Shown here piece after piece: positions 2,631-47,936 of a stretch of 64,000 bases of DNA. The DNA lies in the NCBI RefSeq assembly GCF_963675165.1, contig NC_087377.1:9503122-9567121 (forward strand). Direction: 5' to 3'. The notes beneath the pieces are model-generated. The model made no database searches, was not told where the DNA came from, and was given only the letters and a program-made list of their open reading frames with translations. This DNA comes from Halichondria panicea. Its lineage: Eukaryota > Porifera > Demospongiae > Suberitida > Halichondriidae. Numbering within the stretch: position 1 is the stretch's first letter; every line of letters begins with the position of its first letter. Position numbers and translations under genes: made by a program.

Positions 2631-5522
2631 ATGGGTGAGTGCATGTTCTTAAAAACAATCTGTGTGTGATGTAAGAATTTTTATGTCACAAGTATAGATC
2701 TAATAGTAAATTCTTGATCTAGAAATTATCCAGATATTTTTACCTATAGCAATGTCAATGTTTTGCAGCTCAGAAACCTAAGAGAAAAGACATCACTAAG
2801 TATGTCAAACCTCACGCTACTCACAAATGGCATGACCTGGGGCTGGAACTGAATGTTGGAGATGAGGATGGTATTGCTCTTGATGAAATCCGAGAAAAGT
2901 ATCGAGCCGACAAAGGAGATTGCTTTGACTGTATGATAGGCAAGTGGTTTAAGGAGGCTGACCCTTCTCAACTAACCTGGCAAACGCTCATTGATTGTAT
3001 GAGCTCAAATGGTCTTCAACTGGACGAAGCAGTGAAAGCTATACATGAGAACGTCTTTGGAGGTATTAAAATTAACCAACTTCGTTTTTATTGCAGCCAC
3101 ACCCTAGCCTCAATTCTAGCCCACTGGAAAATAACCGGCATCACTAATGTTGACACAATAATGTTGACATAAGTAATAGTTATACAGAATCTATTTTGTA
3201 TACTGTGCAGCTACTGTTTCACTGGCTGGAAGAAAATCTGGTAGTGAAGCTCAAGATACTTCCACAACTGAAGGCCCATCTTGCATTTCCCACGCCGACG
3301 ACTTACAACATAAACCACAAGAAACAATCTACAATGTACAATCGGCTGAAGTTGCTTCCACAACAACTACAATTGCCACTGAACAATTGTACTGCGATGG
3401 CGATGCGAGTGAAGTACGACCCAAACCACGAGGTGGTACAAATGATCTTCCAATTGCCGTGGACGGGCCTCCTCTTCCTGACGAAACCCCCACTGAATCC
3501 CTACAACCTATTGATTACACCTTAGTTCTTGATAAAGGAAAATCTATTCGAGGCTATCAAACAGAGTTAGCTCAGCCTGGTATTGAAGGGAAAAATTATA
3601 TTGTTGTGGCCCCCACTGGAAGTGGAAAAACGCTTGTGGCTGCTCTTGTGATTTCACACCATCTTCAAACTGGAAAAGAGAAAGACGAGATGAGGAAAGT
3701 TGTCTTTATTGTAGAGAAGAGGCCACTTGCCCAGCAGCAAACCAAAGAGCTGCAAAGATTCATCCCGGCTGCGCAAGTGTCTTGTTGTATTGGGGACGAT
3801 ACAAACAACTCTATCAAAACTTCAATTGACAGCCATCACATCATTGTGTGTACTGCAGGCAAGCTTCTTGATGAGCAGAAGTGTGGAAGAATTTCACTGT
3901 CTGACTTTAGTCTCGTTGTTTTTGATGAATGTCATCATACTCGAAAAAATTCTCCATATGCAGGACTCATGATTCGATACATACAGATGAAATCAGAAAA
4001 GGCAACTTTGCCACAAGTCATGGGCTTGACAGCATCACCAGGAGCTGGAGATAATCCTACTCTTGAAAAGACAGTCACCATTGACCACTTAGTCAAACTC
4101 TGTGCACTCATGGATGCCACAAATGGTATCAAAATGGTTCGAACAAACAAAAGAGAGCTGGAAGAACACACTAATAAGCCCAACTACAATGTAGAGAATT
4201 CCAAAGAAAGAGAATCAAATGAGCCATTCATTGTCAACGTTATGGCACTCATGCAAGAACTTGAGAGGAAGGTTAGTTTTACATGCCCGTTCAATCGGTG
4301 GAGCCAAAAGTACGAAACGCAAGTTCAACAAAAAAAGTTGGCTCTAGAAGGAAGTACTAATCCCACATCTCGAAATTTTATTCGAATTTATGACCTTCTA
4401 CGCTGTCTCTACCGAGCATTAGAGGTTTACATGGATTTACAGTACGAAGATGCTATGAGTGTTTTATATGACTCAAGTATACGCAAACTTAAAGTGGCAA
4501 ATGAGTTCGAGGTGAAATTACGTACCAGCCTTAATAGCCTTTTAGTAGAATTGAAGGGCATTGCTCGAGTGGAAAATCCTCAACTCTTGAAAGTCAAGAG
4601 TACTCTTGAAGAACAGTTTGTGACAGATCCCCAATCCAAGGTGATGTTATTTGTGAGAACCAAAAAACATGCATCCTCCATCTTCAACTGGGTAAAGTCT
4701 TTACCCACTGCTGAGCAGCTTGGAATCCACCCTCGCATGGTTGTTGGACAGGAAGCTGGAATTACTGGGGACGGAATGACTCAAGCCGAACAGGAAAACT
4801 CTTTCCAATCATTTCGTGATGGGATTAGCAATCTTCTAGTGGTGACTTCAATTGCGGAAGAGGGAATTGATATTCCAGCCTGTAATCTTGTCATACGATA
4901 CAAACATGTCTCTAATGAAATTGCCAAAGCTCAAACTCTCGGACGGGCACGAGCAACTGGAAAGAGTGAAGGTTACACCATCTTGTCCTCTCCCAGCAAG
5001 CAAAACCAAGAAGTAATGAATGGAGAGCTGTTGGCGCTTGTCGATACCATTCTTCTAGATGCTCACTTTCCAACAGGCCGCATATTGCGAAAGAAGATCG
5101 AAAAGGAGCAAGAAATGTTTCTGAAGAAAGAAGAGTGTGACAGAGCAATGGCAAATGAGAAAAAGTCTACTTACAAAGTTGAAGACGTACATCTACTATG
5201 TAGTACCTGCAAAACACCTGCTTGTTGTGCTGCTGATATTCGAGTACTCCATGGGAATTGTTATGTGGTTCCTAGTGAAGAATTTCAGGGTAAGATTAAC
5301 AAGATCAAGCATCCAAAGCCACTGTACAAGCTGGCTATGAACAAAACACACAAGATCCTTTGCAAGACATGTGGTCATTCATGGGGAAACAGTTGCATTT
5401 GGCCACAATCTGGGTACCAGTTCCCAGTGCTTAGCTGCAAGAGCTTTACTTTTGTTGAGAAAGGGAACCCGATAATTGTTAAAAAATGGTCTGCCGCTCC
5501 ATTTGATATCCAGACATATTAA
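2631..5522 (+). CDS. DEATH-domain RIG-I-like receptor (RNA helicase), three exons
   Basis: A predicted 869-residue cytosolic double-stranded-RNA sensor. Exons are 2631-2634 (ATGG before GTGAGT), 2769-3062 (after TTTTGCAG, before GTATTA) and 3211-5522 (after TGTGCAG); all junctions agree in phase. Residues about 18-98 form a death-fold domain (HKWHDLGLELNV ... LTWQTLIDCM). A Ser/Thr-rich linker follows. The helicase core has motif I APTGSGKT (233-240), motif II DECH (338-341, the RLR form), TASPG (373-377), an RLR-type helical insert, motif V TSIAEEGID (645-653) and motif VI QTLGRAR (674-680). The C-terminal regulatory domain has zinc-ligand pairs CSTC (763, 766) and CKTC (817, 820), followed by CIWPQSGYQFPVL. 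Vertebrate RIG-I and MDA5 carry N-terminal CARDs, so the death domain implies a different adaptor; that is inference. No lesion was seen. Intron 2 carries a fragment of the TAGCCTCGATT repeat. Confidence 0.92.
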
Positions 5523-26753: not shown

Positions 26754-29700
26754 CTAAACAAGACCTCCTCCACTCACCCCCTCGCTGGCTGGGGGAACCA
26801 TATCCGGCCCTCCCTTATTTTTGGAGGACCTCTTGGGCTTGTTCACCACGGCACACATAACTCTGGAGGCAGCGGTCTCGTGCTCAATCGTGCAGGGGTC
26901 CTGGGTGGGGATTGGTAGTGTATGCTAAATAGCAGTAGGGAGTAATAACCAAAGCAGTAGGTTCACAAAGCGACACTAGTTGTAAGAAGGTACATGTACA
27001 AGGTAGTTAACTTGCACCCTACATTACGAAAACCTTGGAGTATCTATATGTGTGTATGATGCAACAAGTACTTTACACATACCTGATACACAGCTTCTGG
27101 TGGAGTTGGCTTTGGTTTTGTGTTTTTCTTGCCGTTTTTATCGACCATGGCGTACTGGTCCTCAGTGCCTGGAGCTGCCTGGTGCTCAATGGATTTGGGG
27201 TCAGCGTACAAGGAGTCAGGTGGTGGGGGAGATGAGTTATGCCTGAATGAGAAAATTGCCATGGTATTAGAAATGAGTGTACATATATGCATGCATCTTT
27301 GTACACGTGTATACAATTGTGACAGATAAATTATTGGGTTATAAATTACTTCCAGTTTAAAAAAGCACAATAAATGAAAGCACCACAGGTGCTGATGCCG
27401 CGGTGAAAAGCTAGCTGCAATAATGCTAATGCTTTTGCTATTGCATGCAGGGCAGGAATGGTACAAGATAGTGGGAAACAATCGATCCTGATCGTTGCTG
27501 AGAAGATTACAAAAAAGTCCCATAAATAATGGCTGCTGCATTCAGTGGAGCTTTGCAGCTCTTTCGCAGCTACCAATAGGTAGCGTACTAGTGCAGAGCT
27601 ACTTTTAAGTTGAATAGCTAAGTTATGTCAACAGATTTTGCTACACACGAGTCTGAAGAGACTGCAATGCCCTTCAAAGTAAGCACAACTAGCCATAATT
27701 CGAAAACAAGCATTATTTTGCAAATCTACAAATAAAATCCATGACTAGAAGCCTATAGAAGCTCTTACTTGCAACTTCATTTATCACTGGGCAGAACAGT
27801 CTACACAGCCAGACACACACACAAACACACTACAATGCACACCGAGGCACAATTATGGCTTTCACTTACGTAAGTTCGTGCTTCCTTGCGTTTTCAGATT
27901 TGAACGATCTCACTGACCAATCTTTAGATGCAGAAAGATTATGTTTATAAACTTGAGCAAATTGGTTTATGCTGGTTAAAAAAATCCTGAGCACTACCCA
28001 TTACCTTTAGATCTGTTTTTGTACTTGTAAGCACCGAAGCCTCCAGCTAGGCTAAGAACAGCAACCACTAGCAGTACACAGACTACAATAACCACGGTTA
28101 CACAAACTGTGCCACATGCTGAGGAGAGACAAATTTAATAAATAGACACATATAGAGTACATGTGGTAGAAGGTATATAGCTACCTGGAACCGTGAAGGA
28201 TCCAGTTACCGGCAGACCAATAGTGGTAGTACTAGTATTATCATTCCTGAGTACCACCCTGATGTCGTAAGTGTACATTGTTCCAGAGGTCAGACTATCG
28301 AAATCACCATGTACTGAGATGATGTAGGGTAGTTTGCCAACACAGCACTACCATGAGGGGGATCAATAGCTGCGAGTATGGACAGGGAGTCAAGACTCAT
28401 GGGGGGAGAGGGAGATACACTGACCACTATTGAGACAGAACTATCACCAACAGATAGCTGTGGATTGGTGAGCAGTTGCACCGGAACTGTAGAGACAATA
28501 CAAAATGGATAAATTAGGCACATAAAGCTTTCTCTCACCTCTGATAGTGTCATCTGTACGATTCATGCACTCGTTGTTGATAAACACCACACAGATAGTG
28601 TACCTGTCACCAGACTGAGCTCCTGGTATTGACTGGGTCATCGATGAACCAGTTGCACTAAACTGAGGGTTACACACACCCTCCCCGATCTTACTGAACC
28701 CAAACATTCTCAATGGAACTGCTTCTAAAGAGATATCCTATACATACATATATACAAGAATGATTCTTGATGAAATATTAAACAACCTGTTACATGTACC
28801 TGCCAGTTGATGTTAATCACCACATTATCTGACTGGAGAGTGAAAAAGACTGATACTACAGGAGCAGCAAAATCTGTAAAGTATAGACACATGTAGGATC
28901 GAGTTAAAACCTTTTAGAGGCACAAAACTATGTACCTGGGTGCTCAAATATCACATTCTGCAAACTGGTACCCACAGTGAGACGACCAGATGGTGTATTG
29001 GGCGTCACTGTTAGAGTTTGACTTTGACAGAAAGGGAAGTTGTGTAGATTTGACACCAGGACTGAAGTGCTAGAACCGACTGTACTATCTTCTCCTTCAG
29101 TCCAGGATATGATATAGCCAGAGTTGCAGCCATCTGAAGCAGTGTTTGCCGGCTGTGTCCAAGACAAAGTACATGTAGTTCTGTTGGCTTTCACATTTGT
29201 AACCGCTTCCAAACCTGCACAAGAAAACTACTTATCTCAACAGCCACTACCGTATACCATATTCCGATATTATTTGCAAATGACAGTGTACAAGCCTGGT
29301 TGTGTCTAACTATGGCGAATTGTATGCACCTGCTTTTCCTTTTTTCGTTTGCGACCTATGCAATTATGTGGAAACCTCTCCATTTGCAATCTATTCGAAA
29401 CCAGGTATAATTATGGTAGTAGCAAAACATTCAGCAACCTGATTATCAGAACGGGGTTCACATAAATCCTCAAACAACACTTAATACTGTCTCCTATAGC
29501 ATTATTGTTTTGCAGGCACGTATATATGTATCTACTTGCTGTATCTACTCGCTATAATGTTGGGCGATGAATAGTCCCTAGGATGCTAGGCTTCTAAATC
29601 ACTCATATACTTACTTATCATTTGTGGTGTACTTCTTCCCCCTTGTACGCCTGAGGGAGCTTGAACAAAGCCGACAACAGAGTAGCGGTTCCCACACAAG

Positions 29701-30476
29701 TCCAGACCAGTCACACTAATGGAAGGAGAAAAGCTGCTTATAATAGCGGGTGAGTCGCTGCTGCCTATCTCAGTGATCACCACAAAGTACAGTGATATAC
29801 AGCGACTGTCTCCGCCTGTTAAAGTCACTGTCACAGCTGTCAAAGAGTCCTGACTCACAGACACAGCCTGAGTAGGATCTGCAGGGTGATACAAAAGAGG
29901 AGTCAGCCAAGCATGTCTGATTATCAGCTAACTCATACCTACCTGGAATCAATAGCATAGAGTTCACAGCAGCATTGGACCCACTTCTACAGACAACAGT
30001 TAATCCACTGAGAGATGGTTGGGCACTGAAAGACAGTGATGAGTCAACATTCACTACAGTGCTACCAACGTCAATGGTTGTGACTACATTGGTGATAGTC
30101 ACATTCAGTTCTCTACAAGACGAGGATTCACCAATACTGTTATTGTTAATATCTTGAAAAGAGATCCCATTGAGGGGACACCGTCCATTAAAAGCCGTCC
30201 CATCCCAAACGGTTGGTGTTACAGTTGAACAGTTGATAGTTGCAGGACCAGGACAGTACAGAACCGGTTGCTGAGCTGAAGAGTGCATGGAGAAATATTC
30301 ATGTGGATGATGCTACTTTAAGTACTAAAAACCAGCAAAACTAGCACAGTAAAGCGTTTTGATCTAGCAAGAAGGGAATTACATATATGCACTGAGAGCT
30401 CAATCTTTAAATAAGAACTTTTACCCGATGTCCAGCTTAAGAGCGCAACTAAAAATAAAACAAATCTTGTGTCCAT
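26754..30476 (-). CDS. FN3-repeat type I membrane receptor with tyrosine-bearing tail (11 exons, one frame break)
   Basis: Exons, 5' to 3' on the minus strand: 30476-30425 (signal peptide, MDTRFVLFLVALLSW), 30275-29943, 29878-29615, 29214-28936, 28873-28800, 28737-28539, 28496-28195, 28118-28005, 27921-27870, 27242-27083, 26900-26754. All introns are GT-AG and phases agree except in exon 7, where one base is missing near 28307 and the frame stops. Adding one base would give about 658 residues. Order: signal peptide; Cys-rich Ig-like N-terminal domain (LYCPGPATINC ... LTVVC); four fibronectin-III-like domains (exons 3, 4, 5-6, 7); a membrane helix (VTVVIVVCVLLVVAVLSLAG); and a Pro-rich tail with SLYADP, DQYAMV and AVYQ. 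The last exon repeats the DPxxIEHxxAA pattern of the one before. Tyrosine signalling is inferred from the tail. The break could be a real null allele, polymorphism or sequence error. Confidence 0.8.
27650..27800. repeat. Dispersed repeat in the receptor intron, shared with 48960-49100
   Basis: The segments share CTTCAAA, AACTAGCCATAA, and AAGCCTATAGAAGCT in the same order and orientation. Function unknown. Confidence 0.55.
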
Positions 30477-32638
30477 TATTTAGACAACTCTGGTCACAGC
30501 TTCACAGCTAGCTTGAAATGAAGTCAATACCTAATAAGTAATTTATCTTTCTTTAAATAAAGGGTATCTCCCTATGCCATGTGTAGGGTCGTACACATTA
30601 CTGGTGCATCATAATTGTAATAATACTACTCTCAATTATGGAGACCTAAGACATTGTACTTGTTTCGAAAGTGAACTTGTATTCGCTCAAACAGCTTGTT
30701 GTCTCCACACACACACACACAAACCAATCACTCTACACCTGCTGCGCACACACAGAGTAATAATGTTCACTACATTTATGGCTCATATTTCACGGTACTG
30801 AAGCACGATGGCGTCAACACATCACGTGTTGTATTTCCGCATTCCCTTTGATCTGCCCACACAGTACAAACTCTTGTAATACAATCATGTACTCACTGCA
30901 TATTGGTAAAGGTCAGTTTAGAAAATACTGCACTTTACGCACTATGCACATCATTTGAATATGGCAAGACTTGGGTAATGGAAGATAGGCATATTATATT
31001 TTCTCCTGTATACAAATATACAAATGAACACAGACATGCCTTCACACGGCACCTCCATAGGAGGCTTGCCCATCACAACTACAAACATGGGAAGCCAACA
31101 AACAGACAAGTAATTTATATTACCTGGCATTGTAACGCAATTAAACATTGCTACAGACTACAGTAACTATATAATTATAGCCTCATACGGGGGTATGTTA
31201 AACGTCCTATATATTTAAGGGATCTACAGGAATAAAATGTGACCTGGTTCCTATGACATACCTACGTGTGCTACTGAAATGACAAAATAGTAAAATGTAA
31301 AACTGCAGGCCACCGATAAGCTTATATGAAGAACCATCACTTTCAGAAGAGCTAACACCATGGCCGGGTGAGGGCCCCCTAACTCTACAATCTGTGCTAA
31401 GCACATACCCTCCTCTAAAGGAAGCGGATGAGATAGAGAGCAGATCTTATGATGTTATACAATACAATTCATGCAGATCGTCAAAGAGTGTGAAGGAGCT
31501 ACTATAATTATATAAAAGAGAAGTATACGAAAATATGGGAGACAGAATATGCCCTAAAATCATAAACGTGGCCAAGTATGACACTGAGTTGTCCAGCTAT
31601 GATGCAAGCTACGCTACAGGTGAGAATTAATGTACTAAATTATTTGTATTTTATCCTCGTAATTATTATTCTTATAAGCTGAGAACAATAGTACAGGGTT
31701 CTGCCCAGGAATTTTGAGAGGTGGTTAAAAATGATGGGGGAAAATTCGCCCACGCAGGGGGTGTGTACGGGAAGGGAGACACAAATTTGAACATGCATGC
31801 GTTGTAAGCCATGTAAGTATACAACTGAAATAATTATATATTGTTGTACTTGCATCAGTACAGTATGGTGCTATACTAAAATTTCTTCATCACAGGGTCA
31901 TAATCAGTACTTGGAAGTGTTAACTGCACCCAGTTGCTCACTCTCTAGCTAGTCTTTTCCTTAGCAGGTGGTCCAACTCCCTGTTTTAAGGCAGAGTATA
32001 GCTAGCTAGCTAGCTAGCTGCAGTACTCCTTGAACTCAACAAAGCCATGCTGCAGCTTCAATTAATTGTTCTGGTCATGCGCAGTAGAGTTCAATTCATA
32101 GTTAGCTCTATATAAGGCACATCAAGACAGTAAAACTGGTAAGCGAAGACTAGCAGCTAGCTAGATGACTGGACTAGCCAGTACTTGTAGAAAGTAAAGC
32201 AGTGGTCGGAAAGGCTAAGCGGTGGTCGGAAAATATCTAGTGGTGGTCGCAGCTTACCTAAACGACCACTGTAGGCAGAACCCTGATAGTATGCTGGCAA
32301 TCTGGTACCTATTATATATAAATACTAGAGTAAGTAACCTATCTTCGCCAGACACCTATAATCGGCGGCTATTGCACGAAGCACAAGACAATTTTGCACA
32401 AAACTAACTACATGGATCTACAGATGGGTAAGAAAGTAACAGCTCCCCAAAATTTGGAAAGAATAACTTGCTTGCGGACGGAATGGTGGTCATGAGAAAT
32501 AAGCTGCCGAATGTATCGATAATCGTCAGTGAGACATTTATCTCCGTCTTTGCACGCTTACCAAGCACTGAAACTACCAACACTAAACAATGCTTCTTGG
32601 CACAACTCTAACTAGTGAGCACTACTTGCAGGCAAAGC

Positions 32639-32854
32639 AGCGTTAGCTGCAGATCGAGCCCCACCCAGCTAGGCATGACGAAAATTTTGCAAAAAATAGT
32701 GCTGATTCAGCAATAATTGTGCACATATCTTCAGGGCGGCCTGAAATCGAGGTAATCCAAGTTTAATTTGCCACAATTATTGCTGAATCAGCATTATTTT
32801 TTGCAAAATTTTCGTCATGCCTAGCTGGGTGGGGCTCGATCTGCAGCTAACGCT
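32639..32854. repeat. Long palindrome, about 83-bp arms
   Basis: The left arm begins AGCGTTAGCTGCAGATCGAG and the right arm ends with its exact complement. The pairing continues through CACCCAGCTAGGCATGACG and AATTTTGCAAAAAATA to ATTCAGCAATAATTGTG with very few mismatches. The loop is about 50 bp and contains a foldback fragment (GGCGGCCTGAAATCGAGG). Extended cruciform potential. Confidence 0.85.
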
Positions 32855-32875
32855 GAAATAGATTTTGTTATTACC

Positions 32876-33093
32876 TTCTATGCATTCAACATGGAATATA
32901 CTGAAGAGTGCTCCAATTTCCAAGAACAGGCTCCTGGCAGCAGTAGGTGTCTAACTAACTATAAACTCAAGCAACTAAACTCACACCTGTAGATAATTAT
33001 GTACCATGTGCTCTTGTTCCTGCAATTATTGTTTATGATGTCATCTAGTAATTATTATATGCCTGGCTGGGCCCAGGCAATCAATATGGATTG
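32876..33093. repeat. 218-bp segment duplicated at 37574-37791
   Basis: The two segments look identical by eye over 218 bp, from TTCTATGCATTCAACATGG to CAATATGGATTG. The identity ends exactly where a transposon entered this copy. Confidence 0.85.
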
Positions 33094-33502
33094 TAGTCTC
33101 GCGAGCAGACTTGTCCTAGAGGGAACGTCTGGTAACTATTGCAGCAATTCCATGGCACTGAGGAATGTAGTCATGTGCAAGATATTTGTTAATTAACCAA
33201 ATTCACATGTAGACAAATATTTTCATATGCAGCTAGCTAGCTCTTGCTTGGTCTGAGCTCCTTTTGTAACCAAGTTCCTTCGCAACCAGGTATGGTTCAA
33301 CACTAAAATTAGCCTTTGCTAGAGTAATAATCCTTCTTTTCGCGTTCATTTTATGCTATAATAGGAAAATATACGGGGTGTTACCCGCCCACTATGACGT
33401 GGACAAATCTGATTGGCACTGCCAACATTCTGGCAGTGGTCCACGGAATTGCTGCAATAGTTACCAGACGTTCCCTCCCTCCCACGTCTGCTCGCGAGAC
33501 TA
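33094..33502. mobile_element. 409-bp MULE-like MITE with 9-bp duplication
   Basis: The ends TAGTCTCGCGAGCAGAC and GTCTGCTCGCGAGACTA are perfect complements. Inverted homology continues inward for about 65 bp (GGGAACGTCTGGTAACTATT). Flanks are TATGGATTG at 33085-33093 and 33503-33511. The paralogous segment at 37783-37791 has a single TATGGATTG, so that copy is unoccupied. Confidence 0.85.
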
Positions 33503-34091
33503 TATGGATTGGTTTTGTCTCAAAACTAATAAACAGTCGATGTTTAGCAACCAGATCAATGTTTAGCAAAGCTACCAGATCGCACAATGTGCAGATATTA
33601 GGGTGTGGTTTCTTGTGATGCGCCTTAATTAGAATTATGCTAGCTGGAAATGAATGCCACCCCTACTAATCATGGCATACACTTATATAGTATAAATAGT
33701 CCACAGTCGAATGTTCTTGAAACATAATATTAAATATAAGTATTAGTTACTATAATTATATAGTCATAATTGTATGTATCTATTGACGAGTGGCACGTCA
33801 GCATAATTTCAACAGTTCTTGAGTCGATCTAGTTTACCAAATAATTACATACCGGTAAAGATGGCAATGCACATTGAAGATTAACAACAACATACGCACA
33901 TGTACATAGGATGGTGAACAAACCGGAAAAATCAAATTGCAAACTAGCAATTGAAAGTCAATCATCATTATAACATTCAACACAATTAACACTCTGTGTT
34001 AATAATTTGTTATGCTGGTCGTATCAAGTAATTTAGGCTGACCTTATACATTATTCTGGCTGACTGACTCACTGTTTGAAAGTACATGTAA

Positions 34092-36414
34092 TTAACTGAA
34101 GTGTATATGGCCATAATAAGCTAGATTTCCCTGAGTGTGAGGTTCTGGTTTAATATCTTCGTATATCACAGGTGGTTGTCTCATTTCAGTTTCAGTTTGC
34201 AGAGTTATCTTCTCAGACCTCCTGCACTTGTTCACTGCCAGTACAATGAAAACACTGATGGCGAGAACTAGGGTCAAAAAGAACGTCACAGATACTGAAA
34301 GGGCTATTTCAGCTTCTCGGGATATGCCTATAAAGGAGGGAGGTATATGATTTATAAGCCAAACTGTAATAGTGAGTTTGTACCTAGAACAGTGAAGGAT
34401 CCAGTCACCGGCAGACCAATAGTGGTGGTAGAATCATTCCTGAGTATCACCTTTATGTCGTAAATGTAGAGTGTTCCAGGGGTCAGACCATCAAACATCA
34501 CCGTGTACTGTTGAGATGATGTGGGGTAGTTTGCCAACACAGCACTAGCATGAGGGGGATCAATAGCTGCGAGTATGGACAGGGAGTCAAGACTCATAGG
34601 GGGAGAGGGAGATACACTGACCACTATTGAGACAGAACTATCACCAACACATAGCTGTGGATTGACAAGCAGTTGCACCGGAACTGTAGAGATATACAAA
34701 ATGGATAAATTAGGCACACAAAGCTTTCTCTCACCTCTGACAGTGTCATCTGTACGATTCATGCACTCGTTGTTGATAAACACCACACAGACAGTGTACC
34801 TGTCACCAGACTGAGCTCCTGGTATTGACTGGGTCACCGATGAACCAGTTGCACTAAACCGAGGGTTACACACACCCTCCCCGATCTTACTGAACCCAAA
34901 CATTCTCAATGGAACTGCCTCTAAAGAGATATCCTATACATATATACAAGAATGATTCTTGATGAAATATTAAACAACCTGTTACATGTACCTGCCAGTT
35001 GATGTTAATCACCACATTATCTGACTGGAGAGTGAAAAATCGAGTTAAAACCTTTTAGAGGCACAAAACTATGTACCTGGGTGCTCAAATATCACATTCT
35101 GCAAACTGGTACCCACAGTGAGACGACCAGATGGTGTATTGGGCGTCACCGTTAGAGTTTGACTTTGACAGAAAGGGAAGTTGTGTAGATTTGACACCAG
35201 GACTGAAGTGCTAGAACCGACCGTACTATCTTCTCCTTCAGTCCAGGAGATGATATAGCCTGAGTTGCAGCCATCTGAAGCAGTGTTTGCCAGCTGTGTC
35301 CAAGACAAAGTAGTTGTGTTGGCTTTCACATTTGTAACCGCTTCCAAACCTGCACAAGAAAACTACTTATCTCAACAGCCACTACCGTATACCATATTCC
35401 GATAATATTTGCGAATGACAGTGTACAAGCCTGGTTGAGTCTAACTATGGCGAATTGTTTGCACTTGCTTTTTCTTTTTTCGTTTGCGACCTATGCAATT
35501 ATGTGGAAACCTCTCCATTTGCAATCTATTCGAAACCAGGTATAATTATGGTAGTAGCAAAACATTCAGAAACCTGATTCTCAGAACGGGGTTCACATAA
35601 ATTCTCAAACAACACTTAATACTGTCTCCTTATAGCATTATTTTTTTGCAGGTATATATATATGTATCTACTTGCTGTATCTACTCGCTATAATTTGGGC
35701 GATGAATAGTCCCTAGGAGGCTAGGCTTCTAAATCACTCATATACTTACTTATCATTTGTGGTGTACTTCTTCCCCCTTGTACGCCTGAAAGAGCTTGAA
35801 CAAAGCCGACAACAAAGTAGCAGTTCCTACACAGGTCCAGACCAGTCACACCAATGGAGGGAGAAGAGCTGCTCATGATAATGGGTGAGTCGCTGCTGCC
35901 CATCTGAGTGACTTCCACAAAGTACAGTGAAATACAGCGACTGTCTCCACCCGTTAAAGTCACTGTCACAGCTGTCAGAGAGTCCTGGCTCACAGACACA
36001 GCCTGAGTAGGATCTGCAGGGTGGTACATAGGAGTCAGCCAAGCATGTCTGATTATCAGCCAACTCATATACCTACCAGGAATCAATAGCATAGAGTTCA
36101 CAGCAGCATTGGGCCCACTTCTACAGACAACAGTTAATCCACTGGGAGATGAGATGGTTGGGCACTGAAAGACAGTGATGAGTCAACAGTTACTACAGTG
36201 CTACCCACATCAATGGTTGTGACTACATTGGTGATAGTCACATTCAGTTCTCCACAGGAGGAGGATTCACCAATACTGTCATCGTTAATAGTTTGAAAAC
36301 CGATCCCATTGAGGGGACACTGTCCATTAAAAGCTGTCCCATCCCAAACGGTTGGTGTTACAGTTGAACAGCGGATAGTTGCAGGACCAGGACAGTACAG
36401 AACCGGTTGCTGAG
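34092..36414 (-). pseudogene. Second FN3 receptor gene: duplicated ectodomain, different membrane/tail exon, damaged
   Basis: Exons homologous to 2-7 of the first receptor lie at 36414-36077, 36013-35750, 35349-35077, 34992-~35038 (partial), 34933-34735 and 34683-34384, followed by an unrelated last exon 34327-34092. Lesions: a 5-bp duplication in exon 2 near 36147 shifts the frame; about 50 bp spanning the exon 5 acceptor are deleted; the sequence that holds the signal-peptide exon in copy 1 is absent upstream. Exon 7 is intact and in phase here. The last exon encodes a membrane helix (VTFFLTLVLAISVFIVLAV), then KCRR, and a tail with VIYEDI and YYGHI. YEDI fits a YxxI phosphotyrosine motif, and YEDI plus YGHI are spaced by 12 residues, near the upper limit for ITAM-like pairs. 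It may still be transcribed from elsewhere, but as sequenced it cannot give a secreted full ectodomain. Confidence 0.8.
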
Positions 36415-36505
36415 CTGAAGAGTGCATGGAAAAATACTCATGTGGATGATGCTACTTTAAGTACTAAAAACCAGCAAAACTAGCACAGTAAAGCGTTTTA
36501 CAATA
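34350..36505. repeat. Tandem duplicate of 28160-30350
   Basis: Exons and introns match the first receptor almost base for base, including intron landmarks such as CGTATACCATATTCCGAT and the GCGATGAATAGTCCCTAGGA block. Homology ends abruptly at about 34370 (after exon 7) and about 36505, where it jumps to the 31450-type sequence. Hence about 1 kb, including the first exon, is missing from this copy. Confidence 0.85.
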
Positions 36506-37873
36506 ATATACTATACAATTCACGCAGATTGTCAAGAGTGAACGAGCGGTAAATTCTCTTACACTACTAGAAGAGAAGTATACGAAAATATGGGAGAGAA
36601 TATGCCCTAAGATCATAAACATGGCCAAGTATGACTCCAACAAACACTTGCAAGCTGAGTTGCCTAGCTATGATGCAAGCTACTCTACAGATGAGAATTA
36701 ATGTACTAAATTTGTCTTTATTATTATTTTATCCACATAATTATTATTCTTATAAGCTGAGAACAATAGTATGCTGGCAATCTGGTACCTATATACTACA
36801 TGTTTTGTGATGTACACTACAAAGCCATGGTAATCACGAGATAATAAATAACCTGGCAATTAAGATACGACAAATTGTCTGTCACATATACATACATTCT
36901 ACCGAAGAATGAATTGATACGAGAGATGTTCATCCTTGCATTGATTTTATGAAATACCTACCATAATTGATGTAATTACAGCGGCAGAAAAACTATTTCT
37001 AAGCGGCACATCTTTTAGAACACCAAAATTACGTTCAGCTGCAATGCGTCTAAATGATGGTGGTGCTTATGTTCTACAGCCAGTATAGACATTTTAGAGA
37101 AAATGGGCGTGGTTTAGCTCAGTTTCACTTGCTAGCTAGCTGTACCGTTGAGAGCTGACTCGTGAACAACATTTATTGACTCTATAGCTATGGGTCGGAG
37201 AACTGCTCAAAGTGTAAGGAAGTCATAGATGCAGGATTGTCTTGATGTTCTCAAACAAGCCTTTTTATAAGCGCCAAAAATATAATTACAGCAACGGTAG
37301 GCGCTTCTTTTAAGGCCTCTCTACTGATGCTGACGTGGCGCTTAAATTATGGTGGCGCTGTAATTACATCAATTACGCAATGATTATTACAAAACTCACC
37401 TTCATTTGCAGGATGGAGACACACGTACACCGGAACAAGTTCCACTTCCATGCACAACTATGATCCAGATGGCTGGCCACCAGTAATATTCTAGAGAGGA
37501 TTGACAAAACTACACTTATAAAAAATCTCAACTGTACCTACAAAGAAAGCTCTGCTGGTGCTCCTTGAACACGTTCTATGCATTCAACATGGAATATACT
37601 GAAGAGTGCTCCAATTTCCAAGAACAGGCTCCTGGCAGCAGTAGGTGTCTAACTAACTATAAACTCAAGCAACTAAACTCACACCTGTAGATAATTATGT
37701 ACCATGTGCTCTTGTTCCTGCAATTATTGTTTATGATGTCATCTAGTAATTATTATATGCCTGGCTGGGCCCAGGCAATCAATATGGATTGGTGATCACT
37801 TCACTATTTTTTCTCTTGCATTTCAGAGTCTGCATACATACTAATAAAAATGCACACATTATTATAATAATTA
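36506..37873. other. Gene-free stretch beyond the second receptor
   Basis: 36510-36800 and 37574-37791 are the outer duplicated segments described above. About 37265-37370 is a GCGCC-type MITE (GGCGCTGTAATTACATCAAT). No coding sequence recognised. Confidence 0.5.
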
Positions 37874-38275: not shown

Positions 38276-38420
38276 ATGCCCCAAAACCGTGATGCTCTGA
38301 AAATAGATTTTGTTATTACCTCCATGCATCAGTTGGGTCCAGTGTACAAAGATCCTGATGTCTTTAAAGTAGACCCCCACACTCAGGACAATCTTGCCTA
38401 TGGTCATTATTGTTCATTTT
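38276..38420 (+). pseudogene. Orphan tail-exon fragment related to the second FN3 receptor
   Basis: The plus strand reads GPVYKDPDVFKVDPHTQDNL followed by AYGHY. This resembles PVIYEDIKPEPHTQGNLAYY in the last exon of the receptor at 34092-36414, which is on the other strand. No membrane helix, FN3 exon or splice partner was found near it. It looks like a stranded exon left by an inversion or duplication. Confidence 0.5.
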
Positions 38421-40087: not shown

Positions 40088-40926
40088 ATTAGAGACATCA
40101 GGCCGGTGTATCGAGAGTAGTATCTAGGGTGAAGATGCTTAAAACAAAACTATGATGTCATTGTATAGGTGATGAACAATGGATTTTTAAGATACGAGGA
40201 ACTTGTCACACGAGTTGTAGTAATAACTATATAGACAAGCTGAAGGTGTGGTAAATACAGCAACGGAACTCTTAAGCAACCCAGAGACCTAGGGCACATA
40301 TTTTAGTGTGTCGAAACTGGGCCTACTATTGCAAAACAGTGACAAAACCTATGATTGGCATTATAATATCAACTATGAGGCTATCGCTTGACAACCACAA
40401 CAGAGTACAAGCTAGACACAGGACCATTGGCCATGCAGACATTGACTATAATTATATAATTTATTTACTGCCTGACTATTGCGGTGGTTTTAACCCCTTA
40501 CATTTTATTACCTATTACAAATGGTTGTTTTCACACGGTAATGGAAGTTTTACTGCATGAGTAAAAATAATTGCACTATTTACGATTACCAAAATGTTAC
40601 TTTACGATTGAATAAAATGTTACTTTACTATAAAAAAACTGTTTTTTTAACCCTTTGGTTGAAAGGTACATTTACTAATTCGGGTTAAACTGACATGTTG
40701 TTTGACATAGTGGGGACTGTCCCAGGGAAGTGCCCTCGCATGTCCACCACTTTCCGATATGTATTATGTACATATGTACGTTAATAGTACATGTGTAGAA
40801 CAGACATAATTTTATGTTAATGATCAGCAGAGAAAACAATGTTTACAGATGTTCACATTCTGCATGAGTAATGAGCAAAATTAATGAACAGTTTAGGTTG
40901 AAACATTAACCTTAGCTATAATTATT

Positions 40927-41499
40927 ATGTCTAGCAAAAACGTCAGAGCAATGGAAGACAGATCAAGTGTCCACAATTTTCCTACTGATGATTCACAATA
41001 CAGAGTTGGTTGCCAGTTTCATTCGATTCAGGAAAAAGACTTGAAAGTAGGGGATCATATCTATGCCTATACATATTGTTTGGCTTCTATATACCAGCAC
41101 CATGGTATCTACGTGGGCACTACTGCTGGAACACCGATTGTAATTCACTTTACTGGCCAGAAGGAGCAGAAAACAAAATTTACAGCAAAGATAACTCGAT
41201 CGTCTCTTGATCAGTTTCTGGATGGAGCTTCGTTGCGATTGGTTGTGTACAGAGTTAGTGATGGCCAAGCACAGGCAGGAACGTCAACACATACAAGCTA
41301 TAGCTTACCAGCCCACCAAGTAGTAGCCACTGCTAAGCACTATGCTGAACATCCGGAGGAGTGGGATGAATGTAACCTTTTAGAAAACAACTGTGAGATA
41401 TTTTGCATCTTCTGCAAGACAGGACACTGTTCTGATGATAATGATCAAGCACACCGCGGCCTTCGAGAATTGGCTGAGGGGATTGAACAGCTTAATTAA
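40927..41499 (+). CDS. LRAT-domain protein (NlpC/P60-like papain fold), 190 aa
   Basis: A single open exon from ATG at 40927 to TAA. The LRAT/H-rev107 fold is marked by VGDHIYAY (residues 41-48), the catalytic His region YQHHGIYVG (56-64), VIHF (72-75) and the catalytic Cys segment ENNCEIFCIFCKTG with Cys156. In characterised relatives the Cys and His residues catalyse acyl transfer or phospholipase reactions on membrane lipids. No C-terminal membrane anchor, such as those of LRAT and HRASLS proteins, is visible, so a soluble protein is suggested. Neighbours are an MITE-rich spacer and the NLR gene 1.7 kb downstream; no functional link is shown. The substrate cannot be predicted. No lesion was seen. 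Confidence 0.8.
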   Translation: MSSKNVRAMEDRSSVHNFPTDDSQYRVGCQFHSIQEKDLKVGDHIYAYTYCLASIYQHHGIYVGTTAGTPIVIHFTGQKEQKTKFTAKITRSSLDQFLDGASLRLVVYRVSDGQAQAGTSTHTSYSLPAHQVVATAKHYAEHPEEWDECNLLENNCEIFCIFCKTGHCSDDNDQAHRGLRELAEGIEQLN

Positions 41500-43187: not shown

Positions 43188-46100
43188 ATGGATCTATCTC
43201 CATCGACACAAGGGGAACAAGAGCCACAACAAGTGAGCAGTCACAGTCCGTTGGCTCAACACACAAATACTTCACCACTAATTGTGAGTATTCCACGCTC
43301 AATAAGAGAACAACATATCACTGAAACTGCCTCTAATGATACTCAGTTTTCTGTTCATACTCTTTCACAACTAATTGTCAGTATACCGTATTCAGTAAGA
43401 GCACAACGGTTAAAAAAAACTTATCGTTAGTATTCCAAGAGAAATACATTCAGAACATGAATTATCCGACCAATTTCACTCTGATATTCACTCTCCACTA
43501 GCTAGGAAACGGTCGTCTACTAGAACCAGGGGCAAAACGTGCCAACCTAGCTCTACCTTGCAAGGTGCCAGTTGTACAGATATTACACCAGCTAAAAGGG
43601 TTCACCACAATAACCCTCAACAGTTGGCAGGTAGAGCACGTCAGTACGAGAGTGATGATAGTGATAGTATATGTATACAGCAGTATGAAAGTGACACCTC
43701 ACAGCAATCTAATGGTGAACATAATGAGACTGATGATGACACAAACCAACAACATTCTATAGCAAGTTCTAGTCAAATAACATCAGCTGGTAGTCAAATT
43801 TTAAATTTCAACGAAATGTACAGAGAACTTCCCGAAGTCAGTCCAAAATGGTACAACCTAAGCCTAGCATTGGGTCTTGATACAGGCATCCTCAATATCA
43901 TAGAACACGATAATAAAGAATGTGAAACCTGTTTAAGGAAAGCCCTATACCAACGACATACTATCAGACCATTGACATGGGCAGAAATTGATACAGCTTT
44001 AAGACAACGTACTGTTCAAATGAATGCATTGGCTGATAAAATACAAGAAAATATCTCGACAAAAAGCTTATTATCGCGTACATGTAGCTCACAGCCTAGT
44101 AGTGACCCCACTCCAGAATGTGTTGTGAGGTACTCCAGCTTCCTTAAAGACAAGTACAAACAGATGTCATCTTTACCAGACGATTGGCCACCACCATTGA
44201 AAGATAAATTTTCAAAACTAGCTCTAATTGAGAAGAAACAGATTCCTTTACCTCAAGCTAAGCACACACAATCAATTGAGTATGATTACGCTACTGGTAA
44301 TGTGGACAATATTGTTAAGAGAAAGCAAGTGATTACATTAGAAAAGATCTTCGAGCCACTACCTGGTGATTCTAAAGTAGTTGCACCAAACAGGTACACT
44401 GTTGTAATAGACGGAGCCCCAGGAGTAGGCAAAACCACACTCAGCAGGAAGATATGCATTGATTGGGCACAAGGGAAGCTCATCAAGGACCACCACACTG
44501 TTATCCTCAAACCACTAAGGGAACTAAGAGGTCACACAGCTGCCTCACTATCTGACTTACTAAAAGCTGACGACCCTGAGCTAAAGGAGCAAATCATAAA
44601 GCACATACAGGAGACATCAGGTTTAGGAGTAATGTTCATCTTTGACGGATTTGACGAGCTGAGCAGTCAGCAACGATCTGATAAGAATACACTTTTATGG
44701 GAAATCATTCGAGGGAATTCCCTACACAATTGTTCTGTGCTGGTTACATCACGATCATATGCCTCAGGCCCACTACAGGATATCAACCGTGTCAATCGTG
44801 TTAATCGACATGTTGAAGTATTAGGATTTAAAAGAAAGGATATAGAACATTGTATTAAACAGAACATTACAGACAAAGAAAAAGCAGAGAAGCTAATACA
44901 GATGCTGAAGGAGAGATTGGATATTGTCTCCCTATGCTATATCCCTCTAAACTGCAGGATTGTACTGTATGTCTACCAGAAAAAACATACTTTACCTGAC
45001 ACACTCACACAACTCTATGAGGTATTCATTCTGTACACAGTCAAACACTACAAACCTGGCATAAATGAAATAAAATATGCAAATAATATTGAGGATTTTC
45101 CCGCTACAATAATCAAGTGTCTAGACTCGTTATGTGAGTTAGCATACACAGGAATGACTCAAGATAAGCTAGTCTTCAAATATAAGGAAGTCACACAGGA
45201 ATTTGACACACCAGCATTATCTTTAGGACTACTAAACTTGATCGAGACTTTCAGCAAGGAACAGACAGAGGCTTATTACTATCAGTTCCTTCATTTAACC
45301 ATTCAAGAGTTTCTAGCTGCAAGGCATCTTGCACTAAAAAAGAGCAAAGAAGACAAACTAGAGTTTATTACATCCAAAATTGATGATGATAGATTTAGAA
45401 TGACTTTACTCTTTCTTTCTGGATTGACTAAACTTGATTTTCTTCCTGTTGAACAAGCCTTCCCAGCTCTGAAATCAATAGAGACTGGTGTGTGTCATTA
45501 TTTCAAAACAAAAACAAAATCTCTACGAAAACCAGTGAGAACTCAATTCTTATTCCTGGCTCATCTTCTATACGAAAGCCGACAAACGACATACAACTGG
45601 CTCTTTCCTTGTCTGGTGACCAATTCACTCAACTTGTCAGAGCATAGTCTCTCTCAGTTTGACTGCCTTGTCTTGGCCAACTTTCTCGCCCTAACTCCCA
45701 AAGATCACGTGTGGGATGATATAAACTTGTCCCAATGCAGTCTTAGTTCTGATACAATTAAACTATTAGTGTCTAAGAAGCATTCACAGAGAGATATTTC
45801 AGTATTGTGCCTAACTAAACGACTAGATCTCTGTTCCTACAAAAGTGCTCGAATTTCTCAAAATTCTTTCACAGCACTCTTCGAAAAGGATTCAAAACTG
45901 GAATACGTTAAAATTCCACCATTGGAGTTTAAAGAAATAATATGCTGCAAATCACCTTTAGGTGAAGCATTGCACATGCTACGAGCAAATAGCTTACAGG
46001 AATTAATAATGACATCCGATACTGAAGCAGGGTGGGCTGAGAGTGAAATTATATCAAAAAGTGCATTACAGATTTCAAAAATGAAAATATGTTCAGGGGT

Positions 46101-47936
46101 AATTAAGAACTTTATCGAGTCTGTTAAACATAAAAAAGTAAAGACTATCGTATTATACAAACCTGATAGTTTTGAGGACTGTTCGCTATGTGCTAGCTCC
46201 GAAAGTGATGTTTGGGATAGTTTTTGCAATGTCATCAAAAACTGTAAGCATATACAACACCTTCATATTAACAAGAGCCACATCAATGCACAGGATATTT
46301 CATCACTAATAGCAACTTTGCAAAACAAGAGAAACCTACGTACGTTACAACTAGAGGGAAGCAAAATAAACTACAAAGGTCTAATACACTTACGAAATAA
46401 CTTGCCAGTGAATGTAAGTGTTCATATTTCAATAAGTAATAATATGCCAAATTTGATAATGTATGTATGCAATGACAACCACGTTTGTGTTGTTTTTAAG
46501 TCACCTGACGAGCACATAGAAGATATTGAATCCGATGATCTATTTACGGTATTGCTAGAACAGCAGTTGCCACAGGAACTAAATAGAGTGATTGTTACCG
46601 CTGAATCATTCCTGTCTAAGGCTTTACTTAGGTCAGTAGGAAATAGTAAAATTGTAGCTAGTTTAACATTAGTCGAACTTAATTTCACACAATTTGCTAA
46701 GGACTGTCGAGATATGCTTGAGAGCACCAACACTTTGCAAACATTGACACTTGACTCATGCGAATTAAACGGTACATCAATCAAACATTTGGAGGATGGA
46801 CTCTCATGCAATCAAGCAGCTGTGGAACTAAAGTTAGAATACTCTGGTTCAGATGACAACTTCTGCGCATGGCACACACCGCTGGCAGCTCTTAAAGTGA
46901 GGTCACAAAATCTTCACGAGCTCAATATAGAAAGACATACTCTGAGCAAAGAACGTAGGAAAAAACTTTCAAAGATAGTAACAACATGCAAGCAGCTACG
47001 AGTCTTAAAAGTATGGTTTGGAGACAATATTCAGAAATTTTTTTCCATGCTCTATCGGATAATCAAAGCCTAAGAGAACTCAGTATTCAAACTACTTGCA
47101 AGATGTCAGTGTTGTTGTTTCAAACACTCCCATCAACCTCCATCACCACTTTAGACTTACAATGTTACGAGAATGAACAACTTGGAAATAAGGGATCTTT
47201 AGCGTTTAAAGACTTCATTCATCAAAATAAAGCGTTAACTGTTTTGAGAGCTAATTCGTGCGGTCTAACGGATGAAGCATTTAAAGGAATCAATATTACA
47301 CACAAATCTCCTCTGAGAGAACTTTCTCTCAGAGAAAATAAGGAAGTAGACAGTAGTTGGACAGAACTTTTCAATGCTCTTTGTTCATCATGCATCACCA
47401 CACTAGACGTCAGTGGTAATAAATTGTGTGGGGAGGAGTGTTGCACAGCTTTGAAATGTCTACTCATCAACAACAAAACACTAGCTGTTCTAAAAATTGA
47501 TTAGCCTAAATATACTGAAGAAGTGGTTTACTGTATTGCTGATGCTCTCTCACACAATCACTCATTGAGGGAAGTATCAATTAGTGGATACAAACTAAAC
47601 ATTCAGGGATGGACAAATCTGTTTAAAAGCTTACATGAAAACACAACGTTAAACACGTTAAACTGTAGTGACGCTCAGTTACAAGCAGCCGACCTAAACA
47701 ATGAAATCGCTAAATCTGTGTGTGAAATGCTAGCACGCAACCAAGGTCTTCAAAATCTAGATATTGCCGATGAATTGATTGAGGGCCATTTGAAAGAATT
47801 TGCAATGGCATACATTCATAGAAAACCTGTCCTAAATTTAACTGTTGGAGAATTGGAAGATGAGTTAGTGAAAGAGATCGAGGAACTTGAAACAGATACC
47901 GATAAAGAGTACAACATTAACAACAGATGGTATTAG
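43188..47936 (+). pseudogene. NLR gene: Death-NACHT-LRR, broken at two homopolymers and one stop
   Basis: A cytosolic NOD-like receptor. The frame opens at ATG 43188, shifts at an 8-A run (43412-43419), is open from there to a 7-T run (47038-47044), shifts again, meets TAG at 47502-47504, and is open in the same frame to TAG at 47934-47936. A low-complexity N-terminus holds three LIVSIP repeats. A death-fold domain follows (about 43816-44065: MYRELPEVSPKWYNLSLALG ... PLTWAEIDTAL). The NACHT ATPase has Walker A GAPGVGKTT (about 44414), Walker B FIFDGFDEL (about 44637) and sensor VLVTSRS. The segment FLHLTIQEFLAARHL (about 45284) is typical of NLR helical domains. Leucine-rich repeats run from about 46240 to 47900. 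Homology continues across every break, e.g. FFHALSDNQSLREL after the T run. It may be a recent pseudogene, or functional with sequence errors, as two of three lesions are homopolymers. If translation began at ATG 43816 the first break would not matter. Confidence 0.85.

Follow-up and report, generated by a model that had tools for sequence, protein, structure and literature searches.

Does a pair of neighbouring receptor genes that share an ectodomain and differ in their tails encode paired receptors, in which one recognition domain is wired to different signals? The question is raised by two genes, here called copy A and copy B, in the window, the 64,000-nucleotide stretch C1:9503122–9567121 of the 131-Mb genome of an animal that is probably a sponge. 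In this assembly, which may have gaps, the best of nine matches to an Antennapedia homeodomain is 49% identical, and so distant a Hox match argues for a sponge rather than a tunicate or a cnidarian. Both genes lie on the minus strand, with copy B upstream of copy A. Our analysis points beyond the two copies to a clustered, paired-receptor-like family, in which the same distal domain is carried by genes with the tail of copy A (tail A) and by genes with the tail of copy B (tail B), and which would serve two competing outputs; we put the probability of this reading, with the window pair as a by-product, at roughly 55%. Our best reading of the window pair itself is that it belongs to that family as a decayed and shuffled member.

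The two copies share a duplicated block. In a comparison of the window with itself, 28182–30360 aligns to 34381–36499 with 2009 of 2191 columns identical (91.7%) and 84 gap positions, and base-level alignment combined with splice-site checks shows that the exon and intron borders of the two copies agree except at damaged sites. Copy A is composed of a signal-peptide exon (exon 1, MDTRFVLFLVALLSWTS, 30425..30476), a predicted V-type immunoglobulin (Ig) domain (exon 2, 29943..30275), an FN3-like exon with a weak Pfam match (exon 3, 29615..29878), a probable FN3 exon (exon 4, 28936..29214), exon 5 (28800..28873), exon 6 (28539..28737) and a further FN3-like exon (exon 7, 28185..28486), all subjected to the splice-site check and the last also placed by alignment and Pfam. 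These are followed by a transmembrane (TM) exon (exon 8, 27998..28118), with borders read from the sequence and counterparts in paralogs, and by two tail exons recognised by sequence and paralog matches: exon 9 (27083..27242), which holds SLYADP, EDQYAMV and AVYQ, and exon 10 (26754..26900), which includes the stop. Copy B, traced by alignment, comprises exon 2 (36077..36414), exon 3 (35750..36013), exon 4 (35077..35349), a remnant of exon 5 (34992..35051, also by splice-site check), exon 6 (34735..34933) and exon 7, whose frame is open (34384..34683). They are followed by one exon that encodes both the TM segment and tail B, with VIYEDI and LAYYGHI (34092..34327; sequence and paralog matches). 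The splice phase fits, by eye, at the joins to both tails. The sequence-only reading had held that exons 2–7 and their introns are duplicated almost base for base; the duplication stands, and the wording is somewhat strong for its degree. It was right that the membrane and cytoplasmic exons differ between the copies and that VIYEDI and YYGHI share a single exon, and mistaken in spreading SLYADP, DQYAMV and AVYQ over three exons, as all of them lie in exon 9.

Genome searches reveal that both tails belong to a much larger set of genes. Tail A gives 31 matches, including 12 loci with exon 9, while tail B gives 50, 21 of them at E <5e-12 including copy B; every match is on C1. Reading the upstream sequence distinguishes three ectodomain classes, each found with both tails: class 1, the window type; class 2, with a distal domain, two FN3-like domains and a sushi-like domain; and class 3. 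Upstream sequence was read at 17 further tail-B loci: 14 of them carry exons related to the ectodomain queries, and no match to those queries was found at the other three (10246, 10251 and 9718). We also observe a third tail type, in which two tail-B-like motif repeats share one exon (L047, L048 and L049, corresponding to genes v9433, v9608 and v9652); these genes have class-2 ectodomains, and their sushi-like exon resembles that of tail-A genes.

Within class 1, close ectodomain relatives of the window copies lie on C1 at 8.897, 8.915, 8.951, 8.987 and 9.669 Mb, and the 80 matches from a genome search with exons 3, 4 and 7 (E 0.1) fall exclusively on C1, from 8.728 to 12.985 Mb. Parts of tail A are present on all five close relatives, the copy at 8.897 Mb having only the TM exon. 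An exon 1 of the copy A type occurs in four of these five copies (8.915, 8.951, 8.987 and 9.669 Mb) and is not in the stretch of the partial 8.897-Mb copy examined. Exon identities, with borders approximate by a few bases, are 94.6% for A–B, 94.9% for A–p8915 and 95.5% for B–p8915; the three are about equally close, so A and B are not clearly each other's closest relatives, and an origin of B by simple local tandem duplication of A is not shown. Pairwise ratios of nonsynonymous to synonymous substitution (dN/dS) across all exons range from 0.37 to 0.58 in 15 comparisons, giving no overall sign that the ectodomain is under positive selection; where single exons have ratios above 1, few changes underlie them.

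The distal domain is well supported, as a prediction, as a V-type Ig fold. In an alignment of 22 exon 2 sequences, a Cys, a Trp and a second Cys are invariant, and a G-x-x-V-x-C pattern is mostly conserved. The AlphaFold2 model of the window exon 2 has a predicted local distance difference test score (pLDDT) of 83. In Foldseek its best chains are T-cell receptor (TCR) chains and SYG-1 D1–D2, with one match at E<=0.001, and in VIA-align it reaches Z 9.7 and 2.5 Å over 90 residues with a chain titled 'Wild-Type Ig-like Domain', tied with TREM2 and TCR V chains. The model of the class-2 distal domain is weaker (pLDDT 65) and still matches V domains (best Z 11.4, 2.7 Å over 104 residues). Pfam returned no Ig match for either exon 2 or the distal domain of class 2. 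For the more proximal exons, the fn3 profile matches exon 4 at E 7e-5 (23.4 bits, just under the cut-off of 25) and exon 7 at E 0.037.

The paired reading was examined in seven pairs, taken as the nearest divergent A-tailed and B-tailed genes among the matches seen. In five of the seven, the distal domain of each gene is closest to that of its partner, and in four of these five the membrane-proximal exons are much less alike; in the fifth (A9105/B9068) the likeness of that exon is not partner-specific. Specifically, the class-2 distal-domain DNA is 94.8% identical in A9403/B9412, 98.1% in A9471/B9489 and 88.9% in A10035/B10039, and each partner is the other's best distal-domain match among the 12 genes compared. 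The 13 non-partner A–B values in class 2 range from 69.3 to 88.0%, indicating that the distal domain is not slow-evolving. The membrane-proximal exon is 78.4, 73.5 and 77.4% identical in the same three pairs, respectively (Fisher, distal versus proximal: 3e-12, 7e-27 and 2e-5), and its best matches track tail class: B-tailed genes match one another at 84.8–93.3%, A9403 matches A9588 at 92.4% and the variant-tail genes at 91.7–93.0%, and A9471 matches A10035 at 84.7%. In A9471/B9489, a near-identical tract of 617 bp at 98.7% extends into the noncoding flank, while the rest is 75.9% identical.

The two class-3 pairs behave in the same way at the distal end. A9105 and B9068 differ in their tails and agree at 496 of 514 ectodomain residues across six exon queries; none of the matches contains a stop. 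The B9220/A9242 pairing was predicted from a weak likeness of their sushi exons before the sequence was seen; the sequence then proved 97.3% identical over 1565 bp, compared with 68–79% to the other two class-3 tail-B genes (matches of at least 98 bases). The distal-domain DNA is 98.7% identical in A9105/B9068 (next best 86.4%) and 98.3% in A9242/B9220 (next best 72.5%), in either pair the best match for both partners among five genes, while the sushi exon of A9242/B9220 drops to 79.3% over 87 bases. The partners lie ~32 kb (B9068/A9105) and ~13 kb (B9220/A9242) apart. In two other divergent pairs (L026/L036 and L037), the distal-domain exons are only ~0.8 kb apart, a spacing that suggests a shared bidirectional promoter. 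Our confidence in the anatomy and in the within-pair likeness of the distal domain is high; we infer gene conversion as the cause of that likeness.

The two tail classes differ in motif content. By the consensus definitions of the immunoreceptor tyrosine-based inhibitory motif (ITIM), the corresponding activating motif (ITAM) and the hemITAM (EDGYxxL), the ITIM consensus [SIVL]xYxx[ILV] is present in 16 of 21 tail-B copies and in three of 11 tail-A copies, while an acidic [DE][DE]xYxx motif (EDQYxxV) is present in all 11 tail-A copies and in none of the 21 tail-B copies. The tail-B count covers 21 of the 50 tail-B matches, including the frame-lost 8791 and the truncated 8830; the tail-A count covers every copy that has exon 9 except the damaged A10035 (11 of 12); and the copies counted are related rather than independent draws. 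The tail-A EDQYxxV resembles a hemITAM that lacks the Gly and the Leu. In tail B, the first motif is most often YE(E/D)P (11/21). The VIYEDI of the window is not the commonest form, and has parallels in VIYEEI (9718), VIYEDL (10881) and the PIYEDI of the variant tails. No receptor type with a charged TM segment and an ITAM adaptor was seen by eye among the tail-B exons and three tail-A genes (window A, A9105 and A9792). The genome has 38 matches to SH2-domain genes at E<=1e-8.

A number of observations weigh against paired function, starting with the window itself. As sequenced, copies A and B are not a working pair, and neither copy is intact, a state that the sequence-only reading did not notice. 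Exon 7 of copy A is frameshifted relative to copy B and to intact-looking sister genes, ahead of its membrane exon; a short retained intron that would restore it was considered and, by eye only, thought unlikely. In copy B, a tandem insertion adds 5 bases to exon 2 and shifts its frame, and a 51-base deletion spans the acceptor and first half of exon 5. Furthermore, the copy A region 30361–31455, which holds exon 1, is absent from copy B, in which homology resumes at 36507, and no exon 1 match for copy B was found anywhere in the window at E 0.01. Decay extends through class 1, in which only two of seven copies (8.915 and 8.951 Mb) have every exon open in the stretches examined; the copy at 9.669 Mb has 2 extra bases at the start of exon 6, that at 8.987 Mb a frameshift and stops, and the partial copy at 8.897 Mb a stop. 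The intact class-1 copies bear tail A, and tail B on class 1 is limited to the broken copy B or to relatives 28–40% identical per exon (L031 and L032, and also L044, which has a stop). Among the divergent neighbours, the FN3-like exon between the distal and proximal exons is best matched within the pair in two of the three class-2 pairs, so the boundary of partner-specific likeness is not sharp. The proximal sushi exon (t3c) of A9105/B9068 is 97.6% identical within the pair but 98.8% to the non-partner B9179; A9588/v9608 has no within-pair preference (87.7% versus 88.0% to two others); and B8945 and p8951 differ in ectodomain class and show no upstream DNA match. Several partners carry defects of their own: frame breaks in B8945, an early stop in the last exon of A9471, a GC donor following exon 9 of A9403, and damage in A10035. 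In the tails read, there is no classical ITAM and no strict hemITAM, and in both tail classes Yx(D/E)P lies ~17 residues ahead of YxxV. This common spacing makes 'unrelated', the word that the sequence-only reading used for the tails, too strong, and the two tails may signal alike. The paired-receptor layout which that reading proposed is borne out at the level of the family, where three classes occur with both tails and five of seven neighbours are alike distally, and fails for the broken window pair.

On the reading that we prefer, both window copies are decayed genes from a clustered family of type-I membrane receptors, whose architecture is a signal peptide, a predicted V-type Ig domain, FN3-like and, in some classes, sushi-like domains, one TM segment and a short tyrosine-bearing tail. 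The tail A module consists of two exons that repeat YxDP ... YxxV, plus the acidic EDQYxxV, and the tail B module of one TM-and-tail exon, in which YE(E/D)P and a C-terminal (L/V)xYxxV are the most frequent motifs. By recombination or gene conversion, the same distal domain would be put, and kept, on nearby divergent A-tailed and B-tailed genes. Both partners would most likely see the same or a related ligand, and their tails, if phosphorylated, would recruit different SH2 proteins, such that one recognition event could have two competing outputs. The window pair would be a chimeric by-product, a class-1 ectodomain on tail B, whose function has been lost in this haplotype. Our confidence in a paired function of the receptor complex is moderate. 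Opposite signalling by tails A and B is plausible from their motifs, and our confidence in the opposite sign of the two tails is low to moderate. Only tentatively do we propose the fuller picture of an early-branching animal, probably a sponge, with a paired V-type Ig receptor complex in which divergent genes bearing ITIM-like and hemITAM-like tails are matched by gene conversion.

An alternative is an ordinary birth-and-death cluster with exon shuffling, in which the tails would signal alike, paired function would be absent, and the within-pair likeness would reflect only the gene conversion of inverted copies that lie close together. It fits the Yx(D/E)P–YxxV spacing common to both tails, the numerous broken copies, the two divergent neighbours of seven that are unmatched, and the divergent arrangement itself, since neighbours so placed, two pairs of them ~0.8 kb apart, are prone to conversion. 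It is harder to reconcile with matched pairs whose members are ~13 and ~32 kb apart, with partner-specific likeness that resides in the distal domain and not in the membrane-proximal exon, and with the different motif content of the two tail classes, and we consider it rather unlikely.

The remaining alternatives concern the window copies. Intact alleles could form a working tandem pair if the lesions were assembly errors or null alleles of this haplotype. Only a single assembly is available, and dN/dS against the intact-looking p8915 (0.37 for A and 0.48 for B) suggests that constraint was lost only recently. The changes in copy B, however, are several and differ in kind (the 5-base tandem insertion, the 51-base deletion and the missing exon 1), unlike sequencing error, and we judge this explanation improbable. 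The two copies lie on the same strand with B upstream of A and have common splice positions, as expected if they formed one transcription unit in which the exons of copy B are joined to tail A by splicing or trans-splicing to give alternative tails; yet copy A has a signal-peptide exon of its own, while in copy B the frame of exon 2 is shifted, exon 5 is damaged and the window search found no exon 1, which makes such a unit very improbable. We give equally little credence to the idea that the copy B ectodomain and an unrelated tail exon are simple neighbours, never joined by splicing. The broken state of that ectodomain would suit the idea, but splice sites and phase match between exon 7 of copy B and the tail exon, and tail B follows related ectodomains at most of the other tail-B loci read. 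There are 20 other tail-B matches at E <5e-12, and the outcome that had been named as fatal to the sequence-only reading, a second tail exon that belongs to an unrelated gene and is never spliced to the FN3 exons, was not observed.

Other features of the window include, at 38318..38407 on the plus strand, opposite to the receptor genes, a remnant (VYKDPDVFKVDPHTQDNLAYGH) that is similar to the tail B end (tblastn E 5e-4). A 221-bp direct repeat (32873–33093 and 37571–37791, 99.5% identical) flanks copy B on either side, and is either a recent mobile copy or a trace of copy B's arrival; an imperfect palindrome at 32638–32855, ~87% self-complementary, resembles a short inverted-repeat element. 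On the plus strand, a 780-aa open frame at 3180–5519 encodes a RIG-I-like helicase with DEAD, Helicase_C and RIG-I C-terminal domains (Pfam). An LRAT-domain open frame lies at 40897–41496 (Pfam E 1.6e-15), also on the plus strand. Near the receptors, an NLR-like protein at 43414–47070 on the plus strand, with open frames on to 47936, has a NACHT domain, a sub-cut-off match to NLRC4 HD2 (Pfam) and, by eye, an LRR-like end. The segments at 6.5–22 kb and 54–61.5 kb share long diverged repeats of ~67–93% identity, mostly direct.

Paired receptors are familiar mainly from the immune cells of vertebrates. In the open-licence titles, abstracts and selected passages covered, we found no report of paired receptors in a sponge, and the sponge passages of PMC12065747 and PMC11999971 name no such receptors. 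The window pair is valuable as a pointer to a paired-receptor-like gene complex: one distal Ig domain on two tail classes, matched in pairs, in a genome that has no close Hox match, would open the origin of balanced activating and inhibitory recognition to tests outside vertebrates, and the cluster would supply candidates for self/non-self or microbe recognition in a sponge. If the fuller picture of ITIM-like and hemITAM-like tails is true, paired activating and inhibitory recognition would be placed near the base of animals, perhaps for allorecognition or the sorting of microbes.

Among known systems, the likeness to the TREM family is one of fold only: TREM2 (5eli) matches the distal domain with Z 9.4 and a root-mean-square deviation of 2.9 over 92 residues at 10% identity, and TCR V domains score equally. 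Hydractinia Alr, as described in passages of PMC12065747 and PMC11999971, is an allorecognition family with V-set Ig domains and with ITIM or ITAM motifs on candidate members. By description it is similar in its large size, in its location within a single complex and in its V-set Ig domains; those passages do not mention within-pair homogenisation, in contrast to the genes studied here. The fester and fester co-receptor (FF/FcoR) genes of Botryllus, according to passages of PMC12065747, form clustered pairs with V-type Ig and sushi domains and with tails bearing ITIM, hemITAM or core YxxI/L/V motifs, and are likewise similar by description in their clustered pairs, domains and tyrosine-motif tails. 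The pairing of FF with FcoR is that of a receptor with a co-receptor, however, whereas here both partners share the distal domain, probably in a different phylum. As in vertebrate CD300A/CD300C, for which passages of PMC12447643 describe gene conversion that keeps the ligand-binding region alike while the tails differ and one partner is recurrently lost, an Ig-type ectodomain is common to two related genes with different tails, the ectodomain evolves in concert, and pseudogenes of one partner recur. We do not claim homology to CD300A/CD300C, from which the present genes differ in their FN3-like and sushi-like stalks, in their divergent orientation, and in the absence, among the tails viewed, of the charged-TM type.

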